From: Bdellovibrionales bacterium
GTDB lineage: Bacteria; Bdellovibrionota; UBA2428
Assembly: GCA_018266335.1 (NCBI GenBank)
Contig: JAFEAR010000088.1
Location: 1-45,123, forward strand
DNA: 45,123 nt
Reading direction: 5' to 3'
Positions 6,933 through 33,251 of the stretch are shown here, in pieces. How positions within the stretch are numbered: the first letter of the stretch is position 1; every line of letters begins with the position of its first letter. The notes under the pieces were generated by a model. It had not been told where the DNA came from and ran no database searches. It was given only the letters and a program-made list of their open reading frames with translations. The position numbers and the translations under genes are program-made.

Positions 6933-6985
6933 GCTAACGCCCCCTAGCCCTTACCGCAATTAAGGACTATGTTCGGCCGCAGTTT

Positions 6986-7573
6986 ATGGGACTCGTTTTT
7001 CCGCTCCAACCTGATCTCCGTGCCTCCAAACCACAAACGCTCGTGCTCAGTAGTTCGAAGAAAAAATTTGGACTGGGCGGCAGCTTTGTTTTTGGCGGCG
7101 TTTTGCTGGGCACCATGTTTTTGGCGGCCTCTCCACTCTTCAAAATTTTCTGGGAACAAGGCAACTGGTTCGACCGCATGATCACCTTGGCGGTGATTAC
7201 TCCAATTGTTTGCTATCCCATCCTGGCGCTCATTTGCTGGTTCTACCAAGAACGCGTGAGCATTCAGAAGCGCGCCGATGGTCACTACGATTGCTCCGCC
7301 GATGAACGCGTGTTCGGTCTGCGCTGGAACAAACGCGAAGCCACGCGCGTCGATCTCCATCAGTTGCAAGTTGAGAACTGGGTGGGCAGTCGCAACGTGG
7401 CCTCTAGCTCGGGCACTCCCGACCGCTACGCCACCAAAGGCCACTGGATGCTGATGCTGAATCGTGGCACCGAGCCGATTCGCCTCGAGCGGCGGGCCAA
7501 AAAAGAGGAAATCGATTTCCTCAAAGCGCAAATCGACGCGTTCTTCTCGCCCGCCAGCACGCCGAAGACGTAA
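6986..7573 (+). CDS. Two-helix membrane protein, unknown function
   Basis: 195 aa. Two hydrophobic helices (about residues 32-55 and 65-87) are followed by a soluble domain of about 105 residues. The segment from CWFYQERVSI onward alternates strands and ends in a helix (KKEEIDFLKAQIDAFF), a layout reminiscent of small bacterial PH-like domains. I do not recognise the family with confidence. The opposite strand also has a long open frame (6944-7621). The plus frame is preferred because it encodes coherent transmembrane segments and ends exactly at the hairpin element at 7576. No good Shine-Dalgarno precedes the ATG. It is divergent from maeB, with 53 nt between them. Confidence 0.7.
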   Translation: MGLVFPLQPDLRASKPQTLVLSSSKKKFGLGGSFVFGGVLLGTMFLAASPLFKIFWEQGNWFDRMITLAVITPIVCYPILALICWFYQERVSIQKRADGHYDCSADERVFGLRWNKREATRVDLHQLQVENWVGSRNVASSSGTPDRYATKGHWMLMLNRGTEPIRLERRAKKEEIDFLKAQIDAFFSPASTPKT

Positions 7574-7575
7574 CT

Positions 7576-7675
7576 GAGCCCATCCAAAAACCTCGCGGCC
7601 GCGAAGTGAGGAGGGAGGCATACGAGGTGTCTGACCGACGAAGCGACAAAGGCCCCGAGGTTTTTGGATGGGCTC
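7576..7675. repeat. Long hairpin element A with conserved core
   Basis: Left arm 7576-7595 (GAGCCCATCCAAAAACCTCG) and right arm 7656-7675 are perfect reverse complements over 20 nt. They enclose a 60-nt loop (7596-7655). The loop shares CGCGGCCGCGAAG, a GGAGG...CATAC block, AGCGACAAAGG and CCCG with element B at 30689-30792, although the arms of the two elements are unrelated. The element fills the space between two convergent genes: it starts 3 nt after one stop and ends 1 nt before the other. It probably forms an RNA hairpin in transcripts from either side and may act as a bidirectional terminator. The layout recalls the published 'skipping-rope' RNA motif; that is from memory and not tested. 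Confidence 0.85.
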
Positions 7676-8359
7676 TTAACGCGCTTCCAAAGCGCGCTCG
7701 CCTACACTCACCGCCTTGCCCGCGAACCACATGGCCCAGGACTTATCCGGAACCAAACTGCGCTCCCGCAGTCCCGGTAGCGCTTGCTCTATGCGCGTGC
7801 GATCGCCACTTTCCAGGGCGGCCTTGAGCGTAAGCCAGTACTTGAGCACCCCGCGCGGATCGCAGGTGTTGAGGTAAATCAAAAAGTCGGGAGCTAGCGC
7901 CGGCTTGACCTGACTCCACCGGTAAAGCACTTCGCGCTCCCAGAGCGAGCAACTTTGCAGGCTACGCTTAGCGAGCACTGTTTGCGGGTCGGGATACACG
8001 GGCAATTTTGCGGCCAGAGTTTCGAGGTCGAGACGATTCAACATCACGGACCATTCGCGCGCCGCTTCGAGCTCTTCGGCGGACAAGCGCGCCACGCGGC
8101 CCGAACGCGCCGCCGCCGTATACAATTCCGGCACCAACTCTGGCTCCAAAGGCCGGGCGGCGTTGAATACGCGCGGCCAAATCTCGAGTTCGGGTTCGAG
8201 CAATTCAATTTCTACCGGGCTCGGAAGGTAAAAGGCACTGGGATCGAATTTGACGACCACTTCAGCCGTGTCGCGATAGTTTTTACGCACCGCAAAAAAA
8301 CCGCCGATCAATCCGCCGACCACAAAGAAGGCCCACAATCCGGGCTGACTCCAACGCAT
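7676..8359 (-). CDS. Membrane-anchored protein, unknown function
   Basis: 227 aa from the ATG at 8359, chosen because GGAGG lies 6 nt upstream; an ATG eight codons earlier lacks such a site. A short basic N-terminus and one hydrophobic helix (about residues 6-24, LWAFFVVGGLIGGFFAV) anchor it in the inner membrane. The remaining 200 residues are probably helical, with a Glu/Pro-rich stretch and paired cysteines in SLQSCSLWE and LNTCDPRG. Several segments look like TPR-style helices (GVLKYWLTLKAALESGDRTRIEQAL), but no family is recognised. It converges on the 6986-7573 membrane protein across hairpin element A. Confidence 0.75.
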   Translation of the reverse strand: MRWSQPGLWAFFVVGGLIGGFFAVRKNYRDTAEVVVKFDPSAFYLPSPVEIELLEPELEIWPRVFNAARPLEPELVPELYTAAARSGRVARLSAEELEAAREWSVMLNRLDLETLAAKLPVYPDPQTVLAKRSLQSCSLWEREVLYRWSQVKPALAPDFLIYLNTCDPRGVLKYWLTLKAALESGDRTRIEQALPGLRERSLVPDKSWAMWFAGKAVSVGERALEAR

Positions 8360-8390
8360 ACGAACCTCCAGGCTATTGCGCACAGCATAA

Positions 8391-8531: not shown

Positions 8532-10277
8532 ATGAACAAGGGGACAAAGACCGCAGTAGTAACTCTTACGGGAGTTCTTGCCGGCGTTTTTTGGTCGGGC
8601 GTAGCCAGTGCTACTGAACGAGTCATCGTTCAAATGCGATCTCCGGGCGCCTTCCATCAGTTGCAGGGGCAGCTGAACGAGGCTCTGCACCTCAACCGTA
8701 CCTCCACGGATGCCTTCGGCCGCCGGCAGTTGGAGTTGCCCCGCGTGGCCAACACCAACGCACGCCTGACCACGGCCCTCGAACACCTCGAAATGGTCGT
8801 GCTGGAAGTTGAATCCGACGCCGACATTGCAACCCTCCAAAAAAATCCCGACGTGCAATTCGTCGAACGCGAACGTTTCTACCCGACACCGCGTCTGCCG
8901 CTGAGCGTTTCACGTCGTCGCAACAACACCTTTGCTTCGACCGAGCAAATGCCTTGGGGCATTTCGGCCGTGAAAGCTCCTGCAGCATGGGCCGAAGCTA
9001 CGACGGGTGCACAAGGCGCCGGCGCCACGGTGCTCGTTCTCGACACGGGCATTGACCGCGATCATCCGGACCTGAAAGAGCGTTTGCTGGAAGGCAAAAA
9101 CTTTTTCACGCGTCGCCTGGCTCAAATGCCGTCGCTCAACAGCTTCTTGCTCGCCGCTTCGCCCATCGACGCGGACGAACAAGACGCTACGACTCCTCCC
9201 TACGATTACTTCGATGAAGTGGGTCACGGCACGCACGTGTCGGGCACCATCCTGGGCGCACAAAACGGTATAGGCGTGGTGGGCGTTGCGCCCCAAGCGA
9301 ATCTGCTCATGGGCCGCGTTTGCGGCGAGCTCGGTTGTTCCTCTGTAGCCATCGTGAACGGTATTAACTGGGCCATTCAAAAACGTGCCGACGTGATCAG
9401 CATGTCGCTCGGCGGCCCTTCCGACGTGCAATCGCAAGCCCAAGCAATTCAAAAGGCAGAGCAAGCCGGCATCGTCACCGTCGCTGCTTCGGGTAACGAT
9501 GGCACCGACAAAGTCTCCTACCCCGGCGCAACGCCGAACGTGATCGCCGTGGGCGCCGTAGACTCTACGGGTACCCGCGCTACCTTCTCGCAGTACGGTC
9601 CGGAACTTGCCATTGTGGCTCCCGGCGTGGACGTAGTCTCGTCCGTACCCGTGGGTAGTGGCCGCGACTCCATCGTGAGCGTGCAGAGCGGTAGCGACTC
9701 TATGCAAAACGTTCCGAGCACGAGCTTCGTAGGCTCGCCCGCACCGGCACAACCCGTGGTGGGCACGCTAGCCCTTGCTGGCATCGGCAAGCCGGATGAC
9801 TTCAAAAACGGCAACGTGAAAAACAAAATCGCCCTCATTCAACGCGGCGAAATTCCCTTCGCCGACAAAGTGAAGAACGCGATCGACGCGGGCGCCGTGG
9901 GCGTCGCCATCTACAACAACGTCGATGGGCTTACCTCGGGCGCTCTGTCCGAAGGTGGCGAAGTGGCCGTGCCGGTGATCATGATCGAAAAAACAGTGGG
10001 CGAGCAACTCAAGACCGCCATCGGCCAAGGACAAGCTTCGTCGATGTCGCTCATGATTGCTAAAACAGACTACGCTTCGTTCCAGGGCACTTCGATGGCC
10101 ACGCCCCACGTAGCCGGCGTTGTGGCGCTGATTCGCGCGGCGAACAAGAATCTGACCCCTGCACAAGTGCGCACGATCATCAAGTCTACGGCCGTTGCTC
10201 ATGCGCCCACCTCGGCTAACGAGTACGGTGCAGGCTTGGTCGACGCTGCAGCAGCCGTCGCCGCCGCCCAGCGCTAA
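8532..10277 (+). CDS. Secreted subtilisin-like (S8) serine protease with PA domain
   Basis: 581 aa exported protease. Residues 1-27 are a signal peptide ending in VASA. About 30-115 form an I9-type propeptide that would inhibit and fold the enzyme. The S8 catalytic domain follows, with Asp171 (VLVLDTGID), His232 (GHGTHVSGT), oxyanion Asn322 (AASGNDG) and Ser521 (GTSMATPHVAG). A PA domain of about 110 residues (around 397-510) is inserted before the Ser motif; such inserts help bind substrate in other subtilases. An AGAGAGGA ribosome binding site precedes the ATG. The stop overlaps the ATG of the following GNAT gene (TAATG). It is likely a secreted or periplasmic scavenging or predation-type protease; that role is an inference. 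Confidence 0.95.
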   Translation: MNKGTKTAVVTLTGVLAGVFWSGVASATERVIVQMRSPGAFHQLQGQLNEALHLNRTSTDAFGRRQLELPRVANTNARLTTALEHLEMVVLEVESDADIATLQKNPDVQFVERERFYPTPRLPLSVSRRRNNTFASTEQMPWGISAVKAPAAWAEATTGAQGAGATVLVLDTGIDRDHPDLKERLLEGKNFFTRRLAQMPSLNSFLLAASPIDADEQDATTPPYDYFDEVGHGTHVSGTILGAQNGIGVVGVAPQANLLMGRVCGELGCSSVAIVNGINWAIQKRADVISMSLGGPSDVQSQAQAIQKAEQAGIVTVAASGNDGTDKVSYPGATPNVIAVGAVDSTGTRATFSQYGPELAIVAPGVDVVSSVPVGSGRDSIVSVQSGSDSMQNVPSTSFVGSPAPAQPVVGTLALAGIGKPDDFKNGNVKNKIALIQRGEIPFADKVKNAIDAGAVGVAIYNNVDGLTSGALSEGGEVAVPVIMIEKTVGEQLKTAIGQGQASSMSLMIAKTDYASFQGTSMATPHVAGVVALIRAANKNLTPAQVRTIIKSTAVAHAPTSANEYGAGLVDAAAAVAAAQR

Positions 10278-10783
10278 TGCTCACGCTACGCAGACTCGAC
10301 CCTCGGGATCCGCGTAGCGAGCAGGAGCTACAAGAGTTACTCAGCGCAACACCCCGCTACACGGAACGTGTCAGCGGGGTTTCTTTTTGCCCACCCGGGG
10401 CCGCCCGCGAAGCTTTAGACATCACGCCCCCCAAGACCACAGCGGAGCAAAAGTTTGTTTTCGTGCTCGACGATGCAGGGACGGGTTCCGTTGGCTGCGT
10501 CGACTTGATTCGCGATTATCCCGTCGCTCACTGCGCCTTTTTGGGCTTGCTCACTATTCGCGAGCCGCAGCAAGGTCGGGGCTTAGGCCGGTAAGCCTAC
10601 GCCCTCATTGAATCGCTAGTGCGCAGCTGGGAATGCCGGAAAATAAGACTTGCCTACGTGTCCACTAATCCGGAAGCCAAAACCTTCTGGATTCGCATGG
10701 GCTTTGCCGAAACCGGCGAACGCCACGAACATCAAAACGGATCGGTGCGCGGCCAACACATCGTGATGGAAAAATCTATCTAA
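10277..10783 (+). pseudogene. GNAT acetyltransferase interrupted by an in-frame stop
   Basis: The frame beginning at the ATG that overlaps the subtilase stop encodes a GNAT fold, but a TAA at 10592-10594 cuts it directly after the acetyl-CoA motif QGRGLGR. Reading on in the same frame gives 62 more codons (AYALIESLVRSW ... TFWIRMGFAETGERHEH ... VMEKSI) up to a TAA at 10781. Those codons supply exactly the helix, strand and 'FYxxxGF' region a GNAT needs. The full frame would be 168 residues. So one nonsense change has split an otherwise intact gene. Alternatives are a sequencing error or stop-codon readthrough. The 105-aa product alone lacks half the fold. Confidence 0.85.
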
Positions 10784-10804
10784 ACGGCTAGCAACAACAC
10801 TCAA

Positions 10805-17933: not shown

Positions 17934-18000
17934 GAATCGGATTCACCCGGGCCGTTTTATCGGGGGATGGGGACGGCCCGGGTGATTCCCGATTCTTTTT
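17934..18000 (+). terminator. Intrinsic terminator
   Basis: A 13-bp perfect GC-rich stem (TCACCCGGGCCGT at 17943-17955 with its complement at 17973-17985) is extended by an outer 7-bp stem (GAATCGG/CCGATTC). TTTTT follows directly, then ATTT. This is a classic Rho-independent terminator that ends the small acidic gene and insulates the PadR promoter just downstream. Confidence 0.88.
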
Positions 18001-19384: not shown

Positions 19385-20056
19385 TTGCTAAAGGCCTGGA
19401 CCGTGATTGCGTTCAATCATCACGATCCCTTCCCTCTCGGTGCGCATACCGCGCACAGTTACGCGGAAGCTCAAGCCCATTCGGCACTGGTCGACGCCTG
19501 GATTGGACTGCAAGTAGAACGCATCGAAGCCGCACTCGCTCAGCAAACTAAAAATCCGCACGAGCAAAAGTGGCTAGGACTGCCTTCATCGGCACTCCTC
19601 ACGCCGTACACCGAAATTCGCCATCTCCTGCACGAACTCAATCCCGCGCCCGCAAGCACGATTGTCGATTTAGGCGCGGGTTACGGACGCATGGGCTTCG
19701 TGGTGGGTCGTCACTACCCCGAGGTTAAATTCTTGGGCTACGAATGCGTTCCCGAACGCGTTCGCGAGGGCCAACGCTGTTTACTGCCCTACCCGAACGC
19801 GCAGTTGCAGGAAGCCGATCTAGCCCATACAAACTTCTCACCCATCGCCGCCAACTTTTATTTTATTTACGACTACGGCACGCGCGCCCACGTGAATAAA
19901 TCACTCCGCGATCTGGCGGCCATTGCCCGCCAGCAAAACATCTCCGTGGTGGGGCGCGGTCGCCTCGCGCGCGATTGCATCGAACGCGAGCATCCCTGGC
20001 TCAGCGTCCACCCACCCGAGCACCGCAGACACTACTCAATTTATCGCTCCCACTGA
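19385..20056 (+). CDS. SAM-dependent methyltransferase (class I fold)
   Basis: 223 aa. The central SAM-binding motif I is TIVDLGAGYGRMGFVV (about residues 90-105), followed by an acidic motif II strand (VKFLGYECVP) and a later NFYFIYDYG strand in the usual post-II position. The target is not apparent. The start is uncertain: the TTG at 19385 is the longest option, and a GTG lies six codons downstream. Neither has a strong ribosome binding site. The stop is 14 nt before the exported protein that follows. Confidence 0.75.
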   Translation: MLKAWTVIAFNHHDPFPLGAHTAHSYAEAQAHSALVDAWIGLQVERIEAALAQQTKNPHEQKWLGLPSSALLTPYTEIRHLLHELNPAPASTIVDLGAGYGRMGFVVGRHYPEVKFLGYECVPERVREGQRCLLPYPNAQLQEADLAHTNFSPIAANFYFIYDYGTRAHVNKSLRDLAAIARQQNISVVGRGRLARDCIEREHPWLSVHPPEHRRHYSIYRSH

Positions 20057-20070
20057 CCGATACTAAGAAC

Positions 20071-21351
20071 ATGATTTTACGGGCATGGCTACTCGCCTCG
20101 TTGTTGGCGACCGGAGCGCACGCAACCCCCGCTCCTTGCGCACCCGAAACTGCACGCCTCCTGAGCGTCCCCACTGTCGACCGTTCACATTTTTACCGAG
20201 CCAAGACCAATCCAGTGGAGCAGTGGTTGAGCTGGGAACAGGAAGTAAACCTGGCGTCCAAACGCCAAGATACCAAGCCCGCACGTCTTGCTACAGTCAA
20301 TGTTCCGCTCCACGATGTCGACGTGCAGTTGCTCCCGGGGGCCCCCGCATGGCTAAAAGACAAATTTGTGCAGGGCAATCACGTTGTGTGGCCCAAACAT
20401 CCTTACAATCAAATGGACATCGTTCCACACCACCAAACACCCGCGAGCGGCAGCATGGCCGCGTATTTCACCAGCTCGCGCTCCATGGCGCTCGTGGACC
20501 AAGAGCACCCGGAGCAGCTGCTGTCCATAAAACTTCCTACTAACCGCCCCAACCGCGGCAAACCTCAACTTAAGTTTCAAATGAAGTACGATATCGGGGG
20601 CACTCAGGTCCGCACGCCGTACATTCACGAGCGCGAACAAAAAATGCAGCCCGCTCCCCATCTAAAAATTTTGCTCGACGTCATGACCGTAGCCGATAAA
20701 AAAACGGGCAACGGATTTATCGTACGCGATCTGAGCGGCATGGACAAAGACCATTACTATATGCCCGCCTTCAGCATTCCCTACGATGGCCGCCAAATTG
20801 CCGGCCGCAATGGCGCCATGTTTCAAGATTTCTGGCAAAAGAACTACGCCGAAGCCCTGGGCCGGGCCAAAGCGCAGCTGCTTCTTCGCCACGGTCTACA
20901 AATGGTAACTCCAAATGCACAGAACATTTTGATTGAGTTCGATCGCAACATGAGTCCCACCGGCACCATCGTGCTCCGCGACCTGAGCGACTCCGCCGTT
21001 GTGCCCGTCGTGGCGCGCGCAATACACTCGCCCGCACATTTCGAACAAATCATGGCCGTAGAGCGTCGTATTGAAGCTGATTTAGCAACCAGAGTGGACC
21101 CCAACACTCAAAATTCGTTTTGGCATATGGACGAGGCTGACCATCAATCAATTCCCGCCCCCCTCCTGACTCTGTGGCAGCAAGCCCACGATCGTGCCTA
21201 CATTCAAGAACTATCGCAAGCCCTTGGAATTCAAATTGAAACTAGCAAGCTTCCCCCCGCTAAAATGTGGGAAGACATTACCCAGATTTTAGAGTCACCG
21301 ACGAGTCAAAAGGCTATTCAACGGTATCAAAGCCAAATTCAGCGACTTTGA
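20071..21351 (+). CDS. Exported protein with IucA/IucC (NIS synthetase)-like motifs
   Basis: 426 aa from the ATG at 20071. That start is chosen because it directly opens a signal peptide (MILRAWLLASLLATGAHA); an earlier in-frame ATG would bury it. Three segments resemble siderophore NIS synthetases: VVWPKHPYNQ (like the HPxHPxxK motif), SSRSMAL...LLSIKLPTNRPNRGK (like the SxRTL...KLSLxxxIT region) and RHGLQMVTPNAQNILIEFD followed by TIVLRDLSD (like HGxxxExHxQN...RDF). These are eye-level matches only. An exported member would be odd because the reaction needs ATP. GATACT ends 6 nt before the ATG and no Shine-Dalgarno is present. Confidence 0.55.
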   Translation: MILRAWLLASLLATGAHATPAPCAPETARLLSVPTVDRSHFYRAKTNPVEQWLSWEQEVNLASKRQDTKPARLATVNVPLHDVDVQLLPGAPAWLKDKFVQGNHVVWPKHPYNQMDIVPHHQTPASGSMAAYFTSSRSMALVDQEHPEQLLSIKLPTNRPNRGKPQLKFQMKYDIGGTQVRTPYIHEREQKMQPAPHLKILLDVMTVADKKTGNGFIVRDLSGMDKDHYYMPAFSIPYDGRQIAGRNGAMFQDFWQKNYAEALGRAKAQLLLRHGLQMVTPNAQNILIEFDRNMSPTGTIVLRDLSDSAVVPVVARAIHSPAHFEQIMAVERRIEADLATRVDPNTQNSFWHMDEADHQSIPAPLLTLWQQAHDRAYIQELSQALGIQIETSKLPPAKMWEDITQILESPTSQKAIQRYQSQIQRL

Positions 21352-21380
21352 TTGCACTGTCATTTGCCGAAGCCTATACT
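21352..21380 (+). promoter_or_regulatory. Sigma-70-type promoter of metal-uptake cluster
   Basis: TTGCAC (21352-21357), a 17-nt spacer and TATACT (21375-21380) make the best sigma-70-like promoter in the window. The expected start of transcription is at or beside the GTG at 21387, giving a leaderless first gene. It begins right after the stop of the preceding gene. No zinc-repressor (Zur) palindrome is recognised here. Confidence 0.7.
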
Positions 21381-21386
21381 CGTTTC

Positions 21387-21707
21387 GTGGCGAGGCGTTT
21401 GCAAATTCTAGCTGTATTCCTGCTCGCAGCTTTCGTGAGCACCGCAATGCTGACCGAAGCCTCGCACCAATTCATTCACTCCGCCGAAAGCGCCATTCAA
21501 CACGCAGGAGTTAAGGCTCCGCAAGAATGTTCGTTCGGCGCCACCCTCGCCTTTTGGCATGGCAATGCCCAAGACAGCTCTACGCTAGCATTGCAGCCCA
21601 ATCATCTTCTGCTCCCCACCTACACGACCGAACTTTCTGCGCCTCACCTTCCCCGGTTGGCGCGGCTCTATTCGCCCTCACTCGCTCGCGCCCCTCCGGC
21701 GGCTTAA
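21387..21707 (+). CDS. Small His-containing membrane-anchored protein
   Basis: 106 aa from the GTG at 21387, chosen because the promoter TATACT ends 6 nt before it and the next residues form a signal anchor (ARRLQILAVFLLAAFVSTAML). The mature part has scattered histidines (ASHQFIHSAESAIQHAG, FWHGN, PNHLL, APHL) and one cysteine, which suits metal binding. A longer frame begins at an ATG at 21267 inside the previous gene but lacks support. It is the first gene of the cluster with an outer-membrane protein and ZnuA/ZnuB-like proteins. I do not recognise the family. Confidence 0.6.
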   Translation: MARRLQILAVFLLAAFVSTAMLTEASHQFIHSAESAIQHAGVKAPQECSFGATLAFWHGNAQDSSTLALQPNHLLLPTYTTELSAPHLPRLARLYSPSLARAPPAA

Positions 21708-21757
21708 CGCCTTTCCGATTTAATTCCTCGCTCATATTCTAAAAATTTGGAGGTTCT

Positions 21758-22819
21758 ATGACGTCCGCTATTTATCGCAGATATGTGACCGCACTGGTCG
21801 CAGGTTGCGTACTTTCGCTTACGGCTCACGCTGCAGGCAACGCCTTTAATCCCGATGCCAGTGTAAACATTCTTACGCTCTACAAAAACAGCACGAGTGG
21901 TCGCTCCACCGACAATGGCTTTGCGTTGCAAGAGGCCGAAATGCAGTTCACTTCGGATGTAGACCCCTACTTCCGTGCCAGCGCACTCTTCTCGGTTGCG
22001 CGCGACAATGGCGAGTGGGGTATCGACCCCGAAGAGGTCTTTGCCGAAACCACTTCGCTTCCCTACGTGACCCTCAAGGCAGGACGCTTCAAAACGGCGC
22101 TCGGAAAGCATAATCAGCTGCACACGCACGCATTCCCCTTTATCGATGCGCCACTCATTAACCAACTTTTACTGGGGGAAGAGGGCATTAAAGATGAAGG
22201 ACTCTCCGCCGCCGTGCTGCTACCCCTTCCCTGGTTTTCCGAAGTCACGGTGCAGGAAAGCTCGGGTCACGCAGACGTGTTCAACAGTCCCAACCGCGAC
22301 GCGCTGGCCACCACAGCACGCCTAAAAAACTTGTGGGATCTAAGCGACAGCACCACACTAGAATTCGGCCTCTCCATGGCCGACGGCGAAAACCAGTTAC
22401 TTCGCCGAACGGATATTTTCGGCGGCGACCTAACGCTCAAATACCGCCCCACGGTGGGCGGAAAATATTTCGCCGTTATTTGGGGCAGCGAATTTTTGTT
22501 CAGTAGTCGCCGCGGACTCAGCAACGACGCCGCAAGCCTGGAGGAGCTGCAGAACCTCAGCGGCATCACCTCGCACCTGCAGGTGAACTTTGCGGAACGG
22601 TGGTGGGCCCAAACCCGCTTCGACTACGCAGGCTTCGGTTCGCACGCCAACGTAGGCAGCGAACACCGCGAAACGTTGCTACTCGGCTACGTGCCTAGTG
22701 AGTTTTCGGGATTACGCCTGCAATACGATCACCTGCGCACCAGCGCTTCCACCACCGAACACACCGTGGCCCTTCAACTCAACATCAGCATCGGCGCACA
22801 TCCGGCGCATGCCTACTAG
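21758..22819 (+). CDS. Outer-membrane beta-barrel protein of metal-uptake cluster
   Basis: 353 aa. GGAGG precedes the ATG and the first 25 residues are a signal peptide ending AHA. The rest shows amphipathic strands typical of porin-like barrels (NILTLYKNS, FALQEAEMQFTSDV, VTLKAGRFKTALGKHNQLHTHAFPF, GLRLQYDHLRTS, HTVALQLNISIG). The HNQLHTHAFPF segment is His-rich and could face the pore. The gene lies 8 nt before the binding-protein gene, so it is probably the outer-membrane entry route for the same metal. It is not a TonB-dependent receptor: the protein is too short and has no plug. Confidence 0.8.
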   Translation: MTSAIYRRYVTALVAGCVLSLTAHAAGNAFNPDASVNILTLYKNSTSGRSTDNGFALQEAEMQFTSDVDPYFRASALFSVARDNGEWGIDPEEVFAETTSLPYVTLKAGRFKTALGKHNQLHTHAFPFIDAPLINQLLLGEEGIKDEGLSAAVLLPLPWFSEVTVQESSGHADVFNSPNRDALATTARLKNLWDLSDSTTLEFGLSMADGENQLLRRTDIFGGDLTLKYRPTVGGKYFAVIWGSEFLFSSRRGLSNDAASLEELQNLSGITSHLQVNFAERWWAQTRFDYAGFGSHANVGSEHRETLLLGYVPSEFSGLRLQYDHLRTSASTTEHTVALQLNISIGAHPAHAY

Positions 22820-22826
22820 GAGACCT

Positions 22827-23729
22827 ATGAAAAATTTAATTGTTCGCTTTATTCCCCTCGCCGCCTTCGCTGCGCTGTCCGCCCAAGCAAAAGTGCAAGT
22901 CGTCACCACCACCCCCGATCTGGCCTTTCTGGTGCAGGAGGTCGGAGGCGCGCAGGTTGACGTAGAGTCCATTGCCAAGGGATCGCAAGATCCGCACTTC
23001 ATCGAAGCCAAACCTTCGTACATGATCAAGGCCAGCAAGGCTGATCTGGTGATTTCCACGGGACTCGACCTGGAAGTCGGCTGGATTCCCAGCATCGTGC
23101 GGGGCGCACGCAATCCCAAAGTTATGCCCGGCAGTGCCGGCTATTTCGAAGTCGGCCCGCTCGTGCCGGTACTCGAAAAACCGGACGGTAAAATATCCCG
23201 CGCAGAGGGTGACGTGCATCCCGACGGCAATCCCCACATTCTGCTAGACCCCATTCGTGCTGGCACCGTGGCCGAAAAAATTGCCGAAAAACTCGCAACG
23301 CTAGACTCAGCGCACGCCGCGGAATTCAAGCAGCGAGCTACAACATTGCGCGAGCGCTTGGCGGCCAAGACGAAAGCCTGGCAAGCCCGCATTCAAAGCT
23401 CGGGCGTGAAGGAGGTTGTCACCTACCACAAGACCCTCACTTATTTTTTCGACCGCTTCGGCCTCGCCAATGCCGCTCTGCTAGAGCCTAAGCCCGGAAT
23501 TCCGCCCACCGCACCCCACATTGTGGAGGTAACGAATCTCATTCGGGAACACCACATTCCTGTGATTTTGGTGGAGAGTTATTTCGACATCAAGCCTGCC
23601 GAACGCATTCAACGCGACCTACCCGGCCTGCGCGTAAAACTAGTGGCTACCACCGTGGATGGCCTACCGGGCATTAAGAGCCTCGATGACATGTACGAAG
23701 CTCTCGTCTCCGCCGTGGAAGGAAAATAG
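22827..23729 (+). CDS. ZnuA-like metal ABC transporter substrate-binding protein
   Basis: 300 aa periplasmic protein with a signal peptide (MKNLIVRFIPLAAFAALSAQA). AGGAG lies just before the ATG. Cluster A-I binding-protein features are visible: VVTTTPDLAFLVQEVGG, SQDPHFIEAKPS (first His ligand), HPDGNPHILLDP (second), VVTYHKTLTYFFDRFGL (third) and a VESYFD acidic ligand near the C-terminus. The His-rich loop common in high-affinity zinc binders is missing, so zinc, manganese or iron are all possible. The permease gene starts 2 nt after its stop. Confidence 0.9.
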   Translation: MKNLIVRFIPLAAFAALSAQAKVQVVTTTPDLAFLVQEVGGAQVDVESIAKGSQDPHFIEAKPSYMIKASKADLVISTGLDLEVGWIPSIVRGARNPKVMPGSAGYFEVGPLVPVLEKPDGKISRAEGDVHPDGNPHILLDPIRAGTVAEKIAEKLATLDSAHAAEFKQRATTLRERLAAKTKAWQARIQSSGVKEVVTYHKTLTYFFDRFGLANAALLEPKPGIPPTAPHIVEVTNLIREHHIPVILVESYFDIKPAERIQRDLPGLRVKLVATTVDGLPGIKSLDDMYEALVSAVEGK

Positions 23730-23731
23730 TC

Positions 23732-24568
23732 ATGCTACAGGCCATACAATTTTTAGCGGCTCCCCTCGTTATGTGTTTGGTGCTTGCCGGCATTCATTGC
23801 TACCTAGGCCTGCACGTTCTCGCGCGCGGAGTGATCTTTGTAGACCTTAGCCTTGCCCAAGTAGCGGCTTTAGGCGCCAGCCTTGCTTTGCTTTGGGGCT
23901 TCGAAGGCCACAGCGCCGGCGTTTACTTTATTTCGCTGGGCGCCACCTTTATCGCGGCGGCGCTCTTTGCATTGTCCCGCCGTCATGAAAGAGATTTTCC
24001 TCAGGAGGCGCTCATCGGCATCGTGTACGCCATGTCCGCCGCAGCTGTGGTGCTGGTGGCTGACCGGCTCGCGCACGGTGACGAGCACATCAAGGAACTT
24101 CTCGTGGGTCAGGTGCTCTGGGTTACATGGCATGATGTTGCCAAAACGACGCTCATTTACAGCGTTGTTGGCGCACTCCACTGGGCCTTCCGCGGGCCGC
24201 TGCTGAACATATCGTTCGGCCGCCCGCAAGCAAATGCCGCCTTCTGGGACTTTGTATTCTACGCCCTCTTCGGCGTGGTGATTACTTCGTCCGTGGGCGT
24301 GGCCGGAGTGCTGCAGGTGTTTGCTTACCTCATTGTGCCCTCGGTGGTGGGAGCCTTTTTGTTTCAGTCCATCCGGGCCCGTCTGTTCTTCGGGTGGGGA
24401 CTGGGTATTGTACTGAGCGTAATCTCTATGGCCCTTAGTTACCGGTGGGATCTTCCCGCCGGAGCTTTTATTGTCGTGGCGTTTACCCTGGTTCCGGTGG
24501 TCATGCTCATGGCCCGCTGTTATCCTAGGGACCATGCTCAGCCGCGAGAGGTTACTCACCGAAGTTGA
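23732..24568 (+). CDS. ZnuB-like metal ABC transporter permease
   Basis: 278 aa inner-membrane permease of the ABC-3 family with seven to nine hydrophobic helices. Family motifs include VIFVDLSLAQVAALGA, the EALIGIVYAMSAAAVVL region, HIKELLVGQVLWVTW, and VGVAGVLQVFAYLIVPSVVGAFLF near the coupling helix. It pairs with the binding protein upstream. No ATP-binding subunit is encoded in this cluster, so the ATPase must come from elsewhere. The last 35 nt overlap arfB in another frame. Confidence 0.92.
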   Translation: MLQAIQFLAAPLVMCLVLAGIHCYLGLHVLARGVIFVDLSLAQVAALGASLALLWGFEGHSAGVYFISLGATFIAAALFALSRRHERDFPQEALIGIVYAMSAAAVVLVADRLAHGDEHIKELLVGQVLWVTWHDVAKTTLIYSVVGALHWAFRGPLLNISFGRPQANAAFWDFVFYALFGVVITSSVGVAGVLQVFAYLIVPSVVGAFLFQSIRARLFFGWGLGIVLSVISMALSYRWDLPAGAFIVVAFTLVPVVMLMARCYPRDHAQPREVTHRS

Positions 24569-24941
24569 ATTTGCAGCGGTGCGCAGCCGCGGGCCCGGCG
24601 GACAAAACGTAAACAAAGTTTCGTCCGCGGCCCTCCTCTTCTGGAGTTTTGAGCGCTCAGCGTTGCTCAACGAGGAACAACGGGCCCTCGTGCGCGAAAA
24701 AATGCGCAACATGATCAACGGCGAAGGGCAAATCTACCTGCGCAGCGATGAATTTCGCGATCTTCAGCAGAACAAAGAGCGCTGCCTAGAGAAACTGCAG
24801 AATTTTGTCACTGCGGCCCTACACAAGCCCAAAGTCCGCCGCCCCTCGCGTCCGACACGGGCTTCCAAGGTTCGCAAGGCGGAGGCTAAATCTCGGCACA
24901 GCGAGACAAAGAAAAACCGCCAAAAACTTCGTTACGATTAA
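24534..24941 (+). CDS. arfB: ArfB-type peptidyl-tRNA hydrolase (ribosome rescue)
   Basis: 135 aa. Releases peptides from ribosomes stalled without a stop codon. The catalytic GGQ loop is in AVRSRGPGGQNVNKVSS near residue 20, and the C-terminal tail is very basic (PSRPTRASKVRKAEAKSRH...KKNRQKLRYD), as needed to enter the empty mRNA channel. Length matches E. coli ArfB (140 aa). The ATG at 24534 gives the normal N-terminus; the frame is open upstream only because it overlaps the permease gene. It may be translated through coupling with the permease. Confidence 0.93.
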   Translation: MLSRERLLTEVEFAAVRSRGPGGQNVNKVSSAALLFWSFERSALLNEEQRALVREKMRNMINGEGQIYLRSDEFRDLQQNKERCLEKLQNFVTAALHKPKVRRPSRPTRASKVRKAEAKSRHSETKKNRQKLRYD

Positions 24942-25017
24942 AATCTTTCCCACTCTCCACAATTTAAAAATATTCGGGCGTAGAATAATTTCTTCGCGAC
25001 CTAAGGAGGGTCATCAA

Positions 25018-26100
25018 ATGAACCAAAACATTTTTACTAAGACGTCTCTGCTCTTCGGCGTTAGCTCAGCGCTGTTGTTCATTGGAGGATGTAGCAAAAA
25101 ATCGTCCACCACTTCCGACAGTAACACCACGAGCGCCATCGCCGCGGACTCCGCGCAAGAAGTCGCCGACGGCATTGCCGACGATTCGTCCACTTCGTCA
25201 TCCTTCGCGGCTGAGTACACTGAGGCCTACGCTCCATCCTCGCTTAGCACCACCCGAACCTGCTCCGGCGGCGGATCGGCCGGCACGGCGGTCACCGTAG
25301 GAATTACTTTCTCCGGCTCGCAAACGATTTCTCTGACTCGTCCGAAAGTAAGCGTCTCTTCGGAAATCACCGAAACCGGCACGCTCTCCCGCGTTTGGAC
25401 GCCCCCCTCAACGCAAACGATTGCGTGCAACGCCGGCGCCACGCGAGTTCTCTTTAACTGGGCCAACGATTCCATCGTGAACGGCTTAAAAGTTACGCAG
25501 ACGGTCGACCGCACTCGCAATGCCTCGCGCACCGTCACGGTCACCTCTTCCGGCGCCTCGGTGGTTAAGACTAACAATTTTACCGCCAAGGGCACCCGCA
25601 CCGTAACTTGGGCTACGGGCTCGGGAACATCTGGTTCAACCGTATCGCGCACCAAAACAGTCACATCGGACGTGACTCGTACGGCCACCGTAACGAACGC
25701 TGATGGAACAACCTCTACAGTTAATTCCACCGTCACGATTGCCGATAGCACTCCGCTATCTGTAACGGTAGTGCGCGCCTCCACGGCACCTTATGCGCTC
25801 AAAACAAAAACGATTAGCTCGGGCACCGTAACGGCCACGCGCACTGGGGTCGACCGCGTCGAATCGGCCTACACGGATGTGGTGTACGACATGACCTCCA
25901 GCACGCCGTGCTTGCCGACTTCCGGCACCATCACGGTCAAGTACTTCTCGAGCGATACGGCCACTACGGCCGCCTCAACCTCGACCATCACCTTCGGTGC
26001 TTCAACCGATTCGGGCGTTTCCATCACTCCCGAAGGCGGCACCGCAACGGATTATCCCGAGTACAACTCCACGGGTTGCGATCTAGAAAAAGAAGTTTAA
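25018..26100 (+). CDS. Thr/Ser-rich lipoprotein, unknown function
   Basis: 360 aa. A perfect AAGGAGGG ribosome binding site precedes the ATG. The signal peptide ends in the lipobox FIGGC, so the protein is lipidated at Cys25. The mature chain is extremely rich in Thr, Ser and Val, with alternating hydrophobic strands (VSVSSEITETGTLSRVW, SRTVTVTSSGASVV, TRTVTWATGSGT, SRTKTVTSDVTRTATVTNADGT), suggesting a repetitive beta-sheet surface protein. It has five further cysteines. No family is recognised. Its stop lies 3 nt from the convergent MFS gene. Confidence 0.8.
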   Translation: MNQNIFTKTSLLFGVSSALLFIGGCSKKSSTTSDSNTTSAIAADSAQEVADGIADDSSTSSSFAAEYTEAYAPSSLSTTRTCSGGGSAGTAVTVGITFSGSQTISLTRPKVSVSSEITETGTLSRVWTPPSTQTIACNAGATRVLFNWANDSIVNGLKVTQTVDRTRNASRTVTVTSSGASVVKTNNFTAKGTRTVTWATGSGTSGSTVSRTKTVTSDVTRTATVTNADGTTSTVNSTVTIADSTPLSVTVVRASTAPYALKTKTISSGTVTATRTGVDRVESAYTDVVYDMTSSTPCLPTSGTITVKYFSSDTATTAASTSTITFGASTDSGVSITPEGGTATDYPEYNSTGCDLEKEV

Positions 26101-26103
26101 GTT

Positions 26104-27330
26104 TCAGATCTTGGCTGGCTCTGGCGCAGTGGTTTTTCTACGAAAATGCCACAGCGTCAGGGCCAAGGCGCTAATGATCGCCGCCACCAAGTAGGCAACT
26201 CCCGGGAAATAAATCGAAGCGTCCGGGCGCGTGAAGCGTGCAAAAAGCGATGTATACAAGAGCGGCCCCACGATGGCCGTTAGGCTTGCAATCGACATGA
26301 GGCTTCCCTGCAACTCGCCTTGCTCCTCTGGCGGCGCGTCACGCGAAATGAGCGACTGCAGCGCCGGCGGCGAAATTCCCGTCAGCGCAAACAAGCCCAT
26401 CACCGCGTACATCATCCATCCCTGCGTAGCGAAGGCGAACAACAAAAAGCCCACAATGTAAAAGTAAAAACCCCAGTGCACCGAACGTGCTTCGCCCAAT
26501 TTTGGAATAATCACGCGCGTGAGCCCACCCTGCACCAAACCAATCGAAAGCCCCACGAAGGACAGCGACAAACCCACCTGCACCGAAGTCCAACCAAACT
26601 TGTGCTGGGTGTAGAGAGTCCAAATGCTGGGATGGGACTGCCCCGCAAGGAGCAACAACAAGTAAATCCAGATGAGCCACATGGGCGGCGAGGGACTCAA
26701 AATTTTTCGGAGCGAAGCAAGAGGATTCAACCGAGCCCCAGTAAAAGCGCGCCGCTTTGCGGGTGGCAAAGATTCAGGCAAAACAAAGAGGCCAAATACA
26801 AAGTTCAAAATATTTAGGACCGCTGCACCATAGAAGGGCACGTGCGATCCGTACGAACCCAACCAACCCCCCAGCATGGGCCCCAAAATAAAACCCATTC
26901 CCCATCCGGCACCAATCAAACCAAAATTAGTGGAACGATTGGAGTCGTTCGAAATATCGGCCATGTAGGAACTGGCCACGGTCATGCTGGCCCCCGTTAA
27001 GCCCGACACCACACGCCCCACAAAGAGCCATCCCAGATTCGGCGCCAGAGCCATGAGCAAGTAATCCAGTCCCGCACCCAGGAGCGAACAAAGCAAAATA
27101 ATTCTGCGTCCGAAGCGATCCGATAACGATCCCAGCACCGGCGACGCCACGAACTGCATCAGTGCGTACACGGAAATAAAGTAGCCAAAGTACTCATTCA
27201 CAAAAACCGGATCGGCGCTGAAGCGACGAATCACGTCCGGTAAAGTAGGAATAATGAGTCCCACCCCGATGGCATCTAGCAAAATAGTGCCCAAAATAAA
27301 CATCACACTGGGACTACGCTTGCTCGCCAC
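26104..27330 (-). CDS. MFS drug/metabolite efflux transporter (TetA-like)
   Basis: 408 aa inner-membrane antiporter with about 12 helices. Motif A reads GSLSDRFGRRIILL between helices 2 and 3, and motif C-like GWGMGFILGPMLGGWLG is in helix 5, as in the TCR/Tet and related drug efflux groups. DAIGVGLIIPTLPDVIR matches the N-terminal helix of TetA-like transporters. The substrate cannot be told from sequence. It is the last gene of the minus-strand operon ychJ-nitroreductase-yheT-MFS, starting 3 nt after yheT. Confidence 0.9.
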   Translation of the reverse strand: MASKRSPSVMFILGTILLDAIGVGLIIPTLPDVIRRFSADPVFVNEYFGYFISVYALMQFVASPVLGSLSDRFGRRIILLCSLLGAGLDYLLMALAPNLGWLFVGRVVSGLTGASMTVASSYMADISNDSNRSTNFGLIGAGWGMGFILGPMLGGWLGSYGSHVPFYGAAVLNILNFVFGLFVLPESLPPAKRRAFTGARLNPLASLRKILSPSPPMWLIWIYLLLLLAGQSHPSIWTLYTQHKFGWTSVQVGLSLSFVGLSIGLVQGGLTRVIIPKLGEARSVHWGFYFYIVGFLLFAFATQGWMMYAVMGLFALTGISPPALQSLISRDAPPEEQGELQGSLMSIASLTAIVGPLLYTSLFARFTRPDASIYFPGVAYLVAAIISALALTLWHFRRKTTAPEPAKI

Positions 27331-27333
27331 GAT

Positions 27334-28323
27334 TCACACCCCTCCCGGAAGAGCGCGCCGTAGCGCGCGATCCAACCAACGATCCAACTGCCTTGTGCGC
27401 TTATCGTAGGCCAAATACCCCATGTGGCCACCGGTGGCTTCGATGTGCAAGCGCACCGCGGGCGAGACTCTGGCGGCTTCGTAATCGGCTACGTGTACAA
27501 AGGGATCATCGCGTGCCGTTAATACGAGTGTAGGCACCGTAATGTCCGCTAATAAATCTTTTGTTGAACAGGTCGTATAGTAATCCTCGCGGCTCGCAAA
27601 TCCATTGAGCGGCGCCGTGAAGGCCGCATCAAACTCAAACAGGGTGCGAACCTTAGGTAGCTCACTATAACCGGGCAGCATGCCCAGGCGGTGCCGCAAG
27701 CGCATGTCCCGCACGCAATCGCGCAAAAAACGTTCGTCGTAAATGCGGTTAAGTCCACGCGATAAATTTTGGGCCGTGCGCTCCAAATTAATAGGAGCAT
27801 TCACGGCCACGGCACGATCGGGATACACGTCGCCACGCCGGCCCGACAACAAAAGTAGCAAAGCATTCGCGCTCAGGGAAAAACCAATGGCCAAGTGGAG
27901 CTTATCGGGAGCCCGATCTCGCCCCCATTTGATGGCCGCCGCTAAATCTTCGGCCCGGCCCGAGTGCTGCGTTTGCCGAGCCAAGCCGAAGCCCGCCCCC
28001 GCCCCCCGATGATTCACCAACAACACGCTATGCCCGAGCTCGTGCGCCAGGCGCGCTGTGCGCTGCATATAAGTAGAATCCGTAGACCCCGAAAGGCCAT
28101 GAAAAAGATAAACGACCGTAGAGCTCGCGCCCTCGAGCCAAAAACTGACTAAGCGATCGCCATCATTGAGCAAAATTTCGGTGTGCACGCCGAGAGAATC
28201 CAATTTAGGCGAAGGCAGCAAATGCCCCAGAATAGTTTGACGGTGCCCACCCCGTGCCCAGCGGGGCGGCTCGCAGGGTTCTACGGACCAATCCGCAAAG
28301 GGATGCCCCTCAAACAAGCTCAT
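27334..28323 (-). CDS. YheT-family alpha/beta hydrolase
   Basis: 329 aa. The family pattern is visible throughout: GGHRQTILGHLLP near the start, the oxyanion-strand motif YLFHGLSGSTDSTYM, VNHRGAG, the nucleophile elbow IGFSLSANALL, the acid in LTARDDPFV and the catalytic His in TGGHMGYL. YheT proteins are predicted esterases of uncertain substrate. The gene overlaps the end of the nitroreductase gene by 14 nt and is followed by the MFS gene after 3 nt. Confidence 0.9.
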   Translation of the reverse strand: MSLFEGHPFADWSVEPCEPPRWARGGHRQTILGHLLPSPKLDSLGVHTEILLNDGDRLVSFWLEGASSTVVYLFHGLSGSTDSTYMQRTARLAHELGHSVLLVNHRGAGAGFGLARQTQHSGRAEDLAAAIKWGRDRAPDKLHLAIGFSLSANALLLLLSGRRGDVYPDRAVAVNAPINLERTAQNLSRGLNRIYDERFLRDCVRDMRLRHRLGMLPGYSELPKVRTLFEFDAAFTAPLNGFASREDYYTTCSTKDLLADITVPTLVLTARDDPFVHVADYEAARVSPAVRLHIEATGGHMGYLAYDKRTRQLDRWLDRALRRALPGGV

Positions 28324-28999: not shown

Positions 29000-29000
29000 G

Positions 29001-29393
29001 TTAGCCTGCCCTACCTTCCGAAAAATACCAACGCCCGCCTTCCCTGCGGAAAACCGAAAACTCGTGGTGCACGTGGCTCTCTCCACCCATATTAAAGTGA
29101 GCTTTGAATTCAACGAGTCCTTCAGCACCCTTCTCCGTGCTGTGCAAAATTTGCAGGCGTGTGAACTCGGCCTTCTCGGCCCACTCGCGATTCGCGGCGC
29201 GGTCGAAGTGCGGCCGAGTCTCCGGATCGGTCGTGTCCCAAATGTAGTCCAAATCTTTCAAACAAAAAGCGGTATAGCGCGAGCGCATCAGCGCTTCGGC
29301 CGAAGGCGCCGGCAAAGTACGATTGAGCATCGGCTCGCAACACTCCGCGAACAATTTGCCGCTATCGCAAAAGCACTTTTGAACCAGCCTCAT
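29001..29393 (-). CDS. ychJ: YchJ-family protein (SEC-C motif)
   Basis: 130 aa from the ATG at 29393. The N-terminal CFCDSGKLFAECCEP is a SEC-C-type zinc-binding motif, followed by AEALMRSRYTAFCLKDLDYIWDTTDP and the NTF2-like fold ending HHEFSVFRREGGRWYF, which match YchJ (UPF0225). Function is unknown. It opens a four-gene minus-strand operon. TATACT ends 8 nt upstream of the ATG and there is no Shine-Dalgarno. Confidence 0.9.
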   Translation of the reverse strand: MRLVQKCFCDSGKLFAECCEPMLNRTLPAPSAEALMRSRYTAFCLKDLDYIWDTTDPETRPHFDRAANREWAEKAEFTRLQILHSTEKGAEGLVEFKAHFNMGGESHVHHEFSVFRREGGRWYFSEGRAG

Positions 29394-29437
29394 AGTGCCC
29401 AAGTATAGATGACAAATTTCCAAAAATCCGGTGAAGT

Positions 29438-30685
29438 GTGGAGATGTCAACGTGCCTGCATGCAGCGCTCCTAGGATGCTCCCTCTTCGCCACCACCAGC
29501 GTTCATGCCAGCCACATTGCCGACTCCAACGCCTGCCACACGGAAGGCACCTACCAAATCCAAGTTCCCGTTTATCCGGACCATAAGAACTCTCCAAACT
29601 TTACTTACACCTTCGCCTACCAGCCCGGCACCGACCCCTCGCTTCCGGTCATCGTGCATCTCCCGGGTGGCCCCGGCGGCAGCTCCATCAATCAAGACTA
29701 TCGGGACTGGCTCGGTGTGCCCCACGAATTTGGCCTCGTAACGACCGACCCCCGCGGCGCCGGCTGCAATGACTTCGACGAAAACACCATCCCCAACGAC
29801 GCCCTCTCCACCGCTTACTTCGCAGCTGACATCGTCAGCGCTGTGCACGCTCTGAAGTTAAATCACTACGCTTTTTACGGTCACTCCTATGGCACCGAAC
29901 TGGCCACGGTCGCCGCGTACCTGGCAGAACACACGCTCCGCCAAGGGCCGGACTTTGTACTTTTCGAAGGCGTGCTAGGGAAATACTTCGCGCCCGACGC
30001 CATGAACGTGGGATTTGCAGATCAATGGAATCAAATTCGCTCCACGTTAAGGCCCGAAGCTCAACGCGCACTCGCTCAGCAAGACGTGCCCTTTGGCATG
30101 CCCATGAAGAACTGGATTAACTACGTCATGCAGCGCCTTTACCAAGGCACCGAAACCGCCGCCCACGACTACAACATCCTTCTCGCCCCCCGTGACAAGG
30201 CCGAACGCGATAGCCAGCGGTGGATTTTGGACCATATTGAAGCACCCACTCCGGATGGCCGAGTTTTTAAGAGTGTGGCCTGCCGTGAATTGCTTCCGGT
30301 GGGACAAAAGAAAATGCACTTTGCGCGCGGGCAAATGGATTTGATTCGCGACGACGATGGCAGCGAGCAGGACTGCCGCGGATGGGGCCCCATGAGCCAA
30401 CCCTTCGATTCGGCCCAGTTTCCGCTGCAGGCGCGGCTCTTTTACTTTAACTCCACCGACGATCCCTCCACCACGATGGAGCAGGCCCGCTATCACTTCG
30501 AGCACCAGCGGCGTGCCGCCCAGAGCACTTTCGTAAGCTCCACGGGGGCCGGTCACATGCCCCTGATTCAGGGCTTCAGCGACTGCAAACGGAATTTATT
30601 CTTGGAGATGGCACGCGAAGACGCCGACCTCCGAATGGTGCTGAACGAATGTCAGCGCCCCTCTAAAGTCGACGTCCAAAAATAA
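29438..30685 (+). CDS. Secreted alpha/beta hydrolase, prolyl aminopeptidase-like
   Basis: 415 aa. A signal peptide (about residues 3-24, ending VHA) exports it. VIVHLPGGPGGSS at 71-83 is the oxyanion-hole motif of proline iminopeptidase and tripeptidyl-aminopeptidase-type hydrolases. YGHSYGTE holds the nucleophile Ser150. A C-terminal GAGHMPLI carries the likely catalytic His. Several cysteines suggest disulfides. It may release amino acids or short peptides outside the cytoplasm. The start could be the GTG at 29438 or the ATG at 29444. Its stop is 4 nt before hairpin element B. Confidence 0.82.
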   Translation: MEMSTCLHAALLGCSLFATTSVHASHIADSNACHTEGTYQIQVPVYPDHKNSPNFTYTFAYQPGTDPSLPVIVHLPGGPGGSSINQDYRDWLGVPHEFGLVTTDPRGAGCNDFDENTIPNDALSTAYFAADIVSAVHALKLNHYAFYGHSYGTELATVAAYLAEHTLRQGPDFVLFEGVLGKYFAPDAMNVGFADQWNQIRSTLRPEAQRALAQQDVPFGMPMKNWINYVMQRLYQGTETAAHDYNILLAPRDKAERDSQRWILDHIEAPTPDGRVFKSVACRELLPVGQKKMHFARGQMDLIRDDDGSEQDCRGWGPMSQPFDSAQFPLQARLFYFNSTDDPSTTMEQARYHFEHQRRAAQSTFVSSTGAGHMPLIQGFSDCKRNLFLEMAREDADLRMVLNECQRPSKVDVQK

Positions 30686-30688
30686 TTT

Positions 30689-30792
30689 AGAGTGCGCAAC
30701 AAAATGGGCGCGGCCGCGAAGCGACCAAGGAGGCCATACAAGGTATGCGACGCGGGAGCGACAAAGGTCCCGGTCATTTTGTTACGCACTTT
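30689..30792. repeat. Long hairpin element B with conserved core
   Basis: Left arm 30689-30706 (AGAGTGCGCAACAAAATG) pairs with right arm 30775-30792 over 18 nt with two transition mismatches. The loop of about 68 nt includes CGCGGCCGCGAAG, GGAGGC-CATAC, AGCGACAAAGG and CCCG, matching element A at 7576-7675; the arms differ completely. Inside the core, CATAC-AAG-GTATG forms a small hairpin. Like element A, it lies precisely between two convergent genes (the secreted hydrolase and the DEAD-box helicase). It probably acts on transcripts from both sides. Confidence 0.82.
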
Positions 30793-32315
30793 TAGTAACG
30801 AGCGGGGCTCTTCCACGGACCGCGCGGGCCGTTGCTGCGGGGAGCGGGCTCGCGGTCGTCGTTGAAGCGGTGGTAGCCACTTCCGTGAGCACGGCGATCA
30901 TCGCCACCTTCGCGGCGATCGTCGCGGCGGAAACGCGGACGCGGGCGCGAATCGTCGCGCTGCTGCTGCGGACGCGGAGCCGAATTTTGCGCGGGACGAC
31001 CCAGCAAATTCTTTTCGGGCATCGCCAGCACATCCGGCAACATCATGGCCAAGAAGCGGCCCACGATTTCGTTGGCCGGCATTTCGCTTACGGTTTTAAC
31101 CCACTCGGGATCCATCAGTTCCATGGCGCGCGCAAAGTTAGGTTGCTCCAGGAAACGCGGCAGAATGGCCGAAGCCTTCTTAATGCCCACGTCCTTGCTG
31201 GAGGGAATCTTGCCCTGAATCATGCGACTCTTTGTCATGTGCTCAATACGCTCAATGATGCGGCGGTTAGCCGGCGTTACTAAGCTCATGGCCACGCCCG
31301 ACTTACCGCTGCGGGCAGTGCGGCCAATGCGATGCACGTAGCTGTCGAGTTCGCGGGGAATCGAGTAGTTCACCACGTGCGTGATGTCCTTCACGTCCAA
31401 CCCGCGCGCCGCAACGTCCGTGCAAATAAGCATTTGCACTTTACGCTCGCGGAAGAGCTGCATGGTGCGCTCGCGACTGCGCTGATCTTTATCACCGTGC
31501 AGGGAATCAACCTTGTAACCGCGATCGCTCAGGTACTGAGCCAAGTCGGCCACGAGCACTTTGGTTTGGCAAAAAATGAGACCGTAAAAATCGCTAGCCG
31601 CATCGATGAGCTTGCAAAGAATTTCGGGCTTATTGTGTTCGGCCGCAACATAATAGAGCTGCTCTACGTTCTCGGGGAGCATTTCTTTACGGTTCACCTG
31701 CACCTGGCGCGGCGAACGCAGATAGTTGTCGGCCACGCGGCGCACGTCAAAGCTCATGGTCGCCGAGAAGAGCCAAATGTTGCTCTCTTCGCGGGGCACG
31801 GTTTGAAGAATTTTTTCGAGTTCATCTTTGAAGCCCATCGAGATCATCTCGTCGGCTTCGTCCAAAATAACGGTGCGCAGACCACTCAGCACGAGCGTGC
31901 CGCGATCCAAGTGATCGATCACGCGGCCCGGCGTTCCCACCACAACCGAAGCGCCTTGCTTGAGGCCGTACACTTGATCGCCAAAGCTCGAGCCACCGTA
32001 CACGGCCACGGTGCGAATGCCCTTGTACTTGCCGAGCAGATTGATTTGCCCTGCCACCTGCAGCGCAAGTTCGCGCGTCGGGCAAAGCACCAGGGCTTGC
32101 ACGCCCTTCTTGCTCGGATCAATTCGCTCCAGCATGGGAATGCTAAAGGCCGCCGTTTTACCGGTGCCCGTTGCCGCGAGTCCTAAGAAGTCGGTGTCCA
32201 CCCCAAGCAACATCGGCAGCGCCTGCGCTTGAATAGGACTCGGCTTTTCGTAACCGAGTTCAGCGATGGCACGTTGGAGAGCGGGGCTGAGGGTAAGTTC
32301 GTTGAAAGATTCCAC
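30792..32315 (-). CDS. DEAD-box ATP-dependent RNA helicase (DeaD/CsdA-like)
   Basis: 507 aa. Unwinds RNA, typically for ribosome assembly or mRNA turnover. Motifs in order: Q motif YEKPSPIQAQALP, ATGTGKT, PTRELALQ, TPGRVID, DEAD (VILDEADEM), SAT, and in the second domain IFCQTK, TDVAARGLD and HRIGRTARSG. The C-terminal 90 residues are Arg/Asp/Gly-rich (RPRFRRDDRREGGDDRR) and bind RNA non-specifically. The start is a GTG at 32315. TATAAG sits 6 nt upstream; AAGG within it could also serve as a weak ribosome binding site. It converges on the secreted hydrolase at element B. Confidence 0.95.
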   Translation of the reverse strand: MESFNELTLSPALQRAIAELGYEKPSPIQAQALPMLLGVDTDFLGLAATGTGKTAAFSIPMLERIDPSKKGVQALVLCPTRELALQVAGQINLLGKYKGIRTVAVYGGSSFGDQVYGLKQGASVVVGTPGRVIDHLDRGTLVLSGLRTVILDEADEMISMGFKDELEKILQTVPREESNIWLFSATMSFDVRRVADNYLRSPRQVQVNRKEMLPENVEQLYYVAAEHNKPEILCKLIDAASDFYGLIFCQTKVLVADLAQYLSDRGYKVDSLHGDKDQRSRERTMQLFRERKVQMLICTDVAARGLDVKDITHVVNYSIPRELDSYVHRIGRTARSGKSGVAMSLVTPANRRIIERIEHMTKSRMIQGKIPSSKDVGIKKASAILPRFLEQPNFARAMELMDPEWVKTVSEMPANEIVGRFLAMMLPDVLAMPEKNLLGRPAQNSAPRPQQQRDDSRPRPRFRRDDRREGGDDRRAHGSGYHRFNDDREPAPRSNGPRGPWKSPARY

Positions 32316-32321
32316 GTGGGC

Positions 32322-32349: not shown

Positions 32350-32431
32350 ATAGTTATTTTTAAAAGAAGAATTGCGCCACTAACCCGTTAATATCATGGA
32401 AAACCAGGGCCTAGCCGATAAGCCCTAAGCT

Positions 32432-32704: not shown

Positions 32705-32708
32705 TAAA

Positions 32709-33233: not shown

Positions 33234-33251
33234 GATTAGTTCTCCTCCATG

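Follow-up and report, generated by a model that had tools for sequence, protein, structure and literature searches.

Two long-looped hairpins between convergent genes of a Bdellovibrionales bacterium: a candidate lineage-specific gene-end signal acting in both directions

Introduction

The loops of terminator hairpins are normally free to vary. In the skipping-rope RNA motif a variable stem carries a long conserved loop and the whole lies 3′ of genes, while MITE/REP-like repeats are short intergenic hairpins whose ends are kept. According to PMC1852404, hairpins that terminate transcription in both directions tend to bear stretches of A and T, and in uptake-sequence terminators the hairpin is formed by closely spaced complementary copies. 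Skipping-rope (RF02924) is drawn with a pseudoknot (PMC7779021).

Here we describe two hairpins, elements A and B, found between convergent genes in a 45,123-nt stretch of DNA (the window) from a Bdellovibrionales bacterium (GCA_018266335.1, contig JAFEAR010000088.1). Their features suggest a gene-end signal that is specific to a lineage and works in both directions. The sections of the literature on bacterial RNA motifs, skipping-rope, Bdellovibrio and bidirectional terminators that were covered held no description of such an element.

Results

Elements A and B headed the eight inverted repeats listed in the window (arms of at least 14 nt, spacing of at most 200 nt; Table 1). As a first-pass annotation of the sequence had reported, the arms of A form a perfect 20-nt inverted repeat (7576-7595/7656-7675), which the repeat finder extended to 25 nt at 96%. 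The same annotation described a 60-nt loop, but this region is not open: past a C-C mismatch the 20-pair arms are followed by four more pairs, GGCC/GGCC (one of them G-U in B), leaving a 50-nt inner region, and the A/B alignment permits an AUAC-RAG-GURU hairpin at its tip. In the minimum-energy fold of A alone, positions 7620-7630 are paired in a different register. For A, the folding energy of the predicted + strand RNA is -60 kcal/mol (z -7.38), and the - strand RNA has a z of -5.95; on neither strand did any of 200 shuffles fold as well. B has the same layout, except that positions 7 and 18 of its 20-pair stem are unpaired, and two further outer pairs are possible, out to 30689/30792. Its RNA gave z values of -4.17 on the + strand and -5.13 on the - strand, again with 0/200 shuffles as good on either.

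Table 1. Elements A and B, their parts and the genes that face each other across them.
Feature	Position	Strand	Basis
Element A, whole hairpin (100 nt)	7576..7675	+	inverted-repeat finder, folding, alignment with B
A, outer 5′ arm; differs from B save at position 5	7576..7584	+	A/B alignment
A, CAAAA block, at the same place in B; pairs with 7662-7666	7585..7589	+	sequence comparison
A, short terminator-like hairpin (7 pairs, 4-nt loop, then TTTT)	7590..7607	-	consensus scan
A, conserved core with inner GGCC/GGCC stem	7596..7655	+	A/B alignment
A, apical AUAC-GAG-GUGU hairpin	7620..7630	+	register of A/B alignment
A, TTTTG block after GC stem; T-tract 7661-7665	7662..7666	+	sequence
A, outer 3′ arm	7667..7675	+	A/B alignment
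Element B, part aligned with A	30691..30790	+	repeat finder, folding, alignment
B, CAAAA block; pairs with TTTTG 30777-30781	30700..30704	+	sequence comparison
B, conserved core	30711..30770	+	A/B alignment
B, apical AUAC-AAG-GUAU hairpin	30736..30746	+	A/B alignment, folding
Gene upstream of A	6986..7573	+	membrane-like by eye; no Pfam family
Gene facing A	7676..8383	-	no Pfam family
Gene upstream of B, alpha/beta hydrolase (PF00561)	29438..30685	+	Pfam
Gene facing B, DEAD-box helicase (PF00270)	30792..32315	-	Pfam

When we compared A and B without gaps, 54 of 100 positions were identical, whereas 199,124 random pairs of stretches from the window had a mean of 25.4 (sd 4.5) and a maximum of 48. 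The identity is concentrated in the core, in two identical, in-register stretches (13 and 11 nt), which bears out the earlier remark that the two loops share blocks. The arms had been called unlike; this holds for most of their length, but pairs 5, 10-14, 19 and 20 are identical. CAAAA/TTTTG forms a fixed block inside the arms, in the same register in both elements, and the A- and T-tracts are equally far from the core in A and B.

Between A and B, 11 of the 24 long-stem pairs are unchanged, one has a one-sided change, 10 are changed on both sides and two are unpaired in B. Among the outer nine pairs, seven are changed on both sides, one is unpaired in B and one is unchanged. In a 30-pair structure, itself drawn from A and B, 96.7% of cells are paired, against 31.5-48.2% when the partner was slid by 1-3 columns, and each observed pairing value was reached by 1/500 shuffles. 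Since the structure comes from the two sequences that it describes, and these amount to one comparison, the figures support pairing but not family-wide covariation. The proposal that the arms are kept to pair and the core is kept as sequence is supported by the double changes and the paired cells, within the reach of a single two-sequence comparison. Four pairs are kept only as G-U on the + strand (in B pairs 17 and 23, in A pair 32 and an apical one) versus one on the - strand (pair 7 in B), so the RNA strand of the core is probably +.

Both elements lie where genes converge, as had been annotated for A. The gap at A, of which 3 nt were thought to be unfilled, measures 102 nt, and the 100-nt element leaves 2 nt; B takes up 100 of 106 nt. 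Because the gaps are filled, there would be no room in them for a separate promoter. Our gene set, which is our own choice of open frames (43 genes in the window), yields eight convergent junctions, two of them occupied by A and B. At five of the remaining six there is no such element and the gap is -4 to 11 nt; the last gap, of 210 nt, seems by our reading of the sequence to hold the remainder of a gene in another frame. When excess folding was compared across 40 gene ends (60 one-base shuffles each), the ends facing A ranked first and second and those facing B fifth and eighth; the gene ends 40813- and 8532+ ranked third and fourth, folding as strongly as those at B.

Apart from itself, the gene upstream of A has 31 homologues, which are 40-64% identical to it. 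A protein search with the gene facing it gave one protein only, 100% identical over 97%; this facing gene uses codons in a coding-like way (0.32 per codon, whereas the overlapping antisense frame 6944-7621 has 0.10). The DEAD-box protein at B found a match in 25/25 genomes searched (of 61 near Stappia), the best being 37-42% identical, so that none looks close. Elsewhere in the window, at 10277-10804, the stretch after a 105-aa + strand frame, read in another frame, looks by eye like the end of an acetyltransferase, a possible frameshift or assembly error. A 68-nt direct repeat (78%; 41390-41457/43006-43073) falls in the start regions of two similar-looking proteins, and a 17-nt inverted repeat (94%) with a 17-nt spacer (17939-17989) lies upstream of a + strand frame at 18040.

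No Rfam family reached its gathering cut-off across the window. This includes the skipping-rope RNA that had been suggested for A: RF02924 had no match at gathering scores, and it was unlisted at E up to 10 in the surroundings of A (251 nt) and of B (241 nt). The positive controls of this model gave no match either (0/1 genome, 0/14 controls). The matches listed at E up to 10 numbered five around A and one around B. We rejected mir-549 at A (E 0.00059 and 0.0015; 28.3 and 26.9 bits versus a gathering score of 93), a eukaryotic microRNA whose match rests on the long stem, and set aside the weaker MIR1437, CC0734 and sX5 at A and H19_2 at B.

A model built from A and B (R1), which scores A at 114.5 bits by construction, matched nothing in the window but the two elements and A read in reverse, with no third copy; the reverse-strand match (43.1 bits) is due to the palindromic arms. 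With stricter filters, R1 gave one match of 35.2 bits in 398 genomes of Stappia's phylum. This site (L046:1501-1606) has long complementary arms and a large loop, its core is mostly unlike that of A and B, it has no Rfam match at gathering, and we discarded it. An exact core pattern, which would miss any copy with a single core change, matched genome contigs twice, in one near-identical stretch of two Stappia genomes; no arms were visible by eye and the matches were taken as chance. A 17-letter pattern matched 32/61 genomes near Stappia and was too unspecific.

In viral contigs, two pattern scans gave no match, and three others gave 14, 8 and 2 (L038 in the first and third), which were judged false because by eye no printed fold closes the outer stem on the core. 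Aligning the neighbour protein with viral contigs returned seven stretches, none of them a relative, and its profile matched 0/398 genomes of the phylum of Stappia in a run without a positive control; this hints at another phylum, although an empty result from such a run proves nothing by itself. By its gene content the window seems Bdellovibrionota-like, whereas plasmid protein searches and RapA_C in the Stappia genome told nothing about where the organism belongs. In distant blastn searches, three plasmid records shared one 26-nt match (E 1) with A, B had no plasmid match, and neither element matched a phage. As the genome-contig scan used one exact pattern and the genome search covered a single phylum, absence elsewhere is weak evidence.

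Discussion

We put at roughly even the chance that A and B form one family of two-way 3′-end hairpins for convergent genes, serving termination or 3′-end protection, with a partner presumably acting on the loop. Since each element fills a convergent gap, transcripts of both facing genes would carry it as their 3′ untranslated end. The GC-rich upper stem stands between an A-tract and a matching T-tract, so that, whichever strand is transcribed, the RNA could fold into a stem with U after it, the arrangement of bidirectional intrinsic terminators. A terminator or structural role, as first suggested for A, is compatible with these features, and the terminator-like hairpin with TTTT on the - strand of A is a point in favour of a terminator, although sites of that consensus scan are no commoner than in shuffles.

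Other observations fit a plain terminator less well. The loop of A and B, about 50-60 nt, is far beyond that of an ordinary terminator, and the short loop of the scan (3-8 nt) is missing from the main hairpin and present on the - strand of A. The outer pairs sit past the T-tract, beyond the point at which termination would stop the transcript. In positions 1-40000, terminator-like sites numbered 26 versus 26.5 (sd 4.2) and 26 versus 29.0 (sd 4.4) in shuffles; without an excess, intrinsic termination may be uncommon in this DNA. B contains none of the 26 sites listed for 20001-40000. Given a conserved loop of this length, outer pairs that are kept and no excess of sites, we prefer, over a plain terminator, a hairpin that would stop or protect transcripts and hold out its loop to a partner. 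In read-through transcripts the outer 9-10 pairs would form as well, so that the RNA would finish with a long, protected hairpin. Neither termination nor protection would require the conserved core, which would most likely be read by a protein or another RNA.

A stronger version, in which A and B belong to a new structured gene-end RNA family specific to an unsampled lineage, and the loop recruits a dedicated factor that sets up a two-way transcription barrier between facing genes, we regard as tentative and somewhat doubtful. The case built from two copies is a lead, not proof.

A different origin, for which we see a limited chance, is the insertion between convergent stops of a small mobile element, either MITE-like or a core that integrates into hairpins already present. 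A and B are equal in length, and in B a TTTAG direct repeat exactly abuts both sides (30686-30690 and 30791-30795); an abutting 5-nt repeat occurs at 0.23% of random places 100 nt apart. In A, TAAC lies one base off each end, which under that looser test is found at 1.9% of random places. Five of the six other convergent gaps are of at most 11 nt, as though A and B were additions, and together with the flanking repeats these tiny gaps keep the inserted element a live rival. However, the stop codons of the facing genes bias the flanks to TAA/TTA, and arms so diverged ought not to retain target duplications. The ends of mobile elements are usually their conserved part, whereas in A and B conservation lies in the middle and the ends are unlike; the outer nine pairs do not form conserved terminal inverted repeats, and the fixed A- and T-tracts argue for constraint within the arms. 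The element counts two copies in 45 kb and none further in the window.

The remaining explanations are less likely than an inserted element. A 3′-UTR-derived or trans-acting small RNA, which we think unlikely, would account for ARGGAGG at the identical place in both cores, a sequence with the potential to base-pair with the 16S rRNA end or to be bound by a CsrA-like protein, and the + strand is slightly better for wobble pairs; yet motifs of this type are short and common, and there are just two copies. That the inverted repeat, long and in A perfect, works as DNA, forming a cruciform or binding a protein, seems improbable to us: the palindrome GCGGCCGC occurs in both cores, but the G-U pairs and the strand-asymmetric core slightly favour RNA over a DNA site, and both copies are at 3′ gene ends. 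A small ORF is hardly credible. AGGAGG is followed by GTG in A or ATG in B and then by an SDKGP stretch common to both, and the frame is open across the whole element in A and B; however, from those starts it reaches a stop after 16 codons in B and continues to 7824 in A, and by eye the A/B differences have no preference for third codon positions. Another open frame of B (residues 1-42), searched against 5.8 billion proteins, gave one candidate, and none was scored.

A gene-end hairpin that keeps its loop while paired substitutions alter its stem suggests a loop-reading factor, and such loop-read control of 3′ ends is undescribed for ordinary terminators in the portions of the literature on them covered here. 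Like a bidirectional Rho-independent terminator, A and B lie between convergent stops and have an A-tract, a GC-rich stem and a T-tract usable on both strands; unlike it, they have a 50-60-nt loop with conserved sequence and 9-10 pairs outside the tracts, mostly kept via paired changes. The comparison with skipping-rope RF02924 gave no match at the thresholds tried. With MITE/REP-like repeats they share the form of short hairpins between genes, but the middle is kept instead of the ends. In the uptake-sequence terminators of Neisseria and Pasteurellaceae, as described in PMC1852404, a sequence conserved for another purpose likewise lies inside a terminator hairpin, whereas in A and B it is the loop that is conserved, and in a single orientation.
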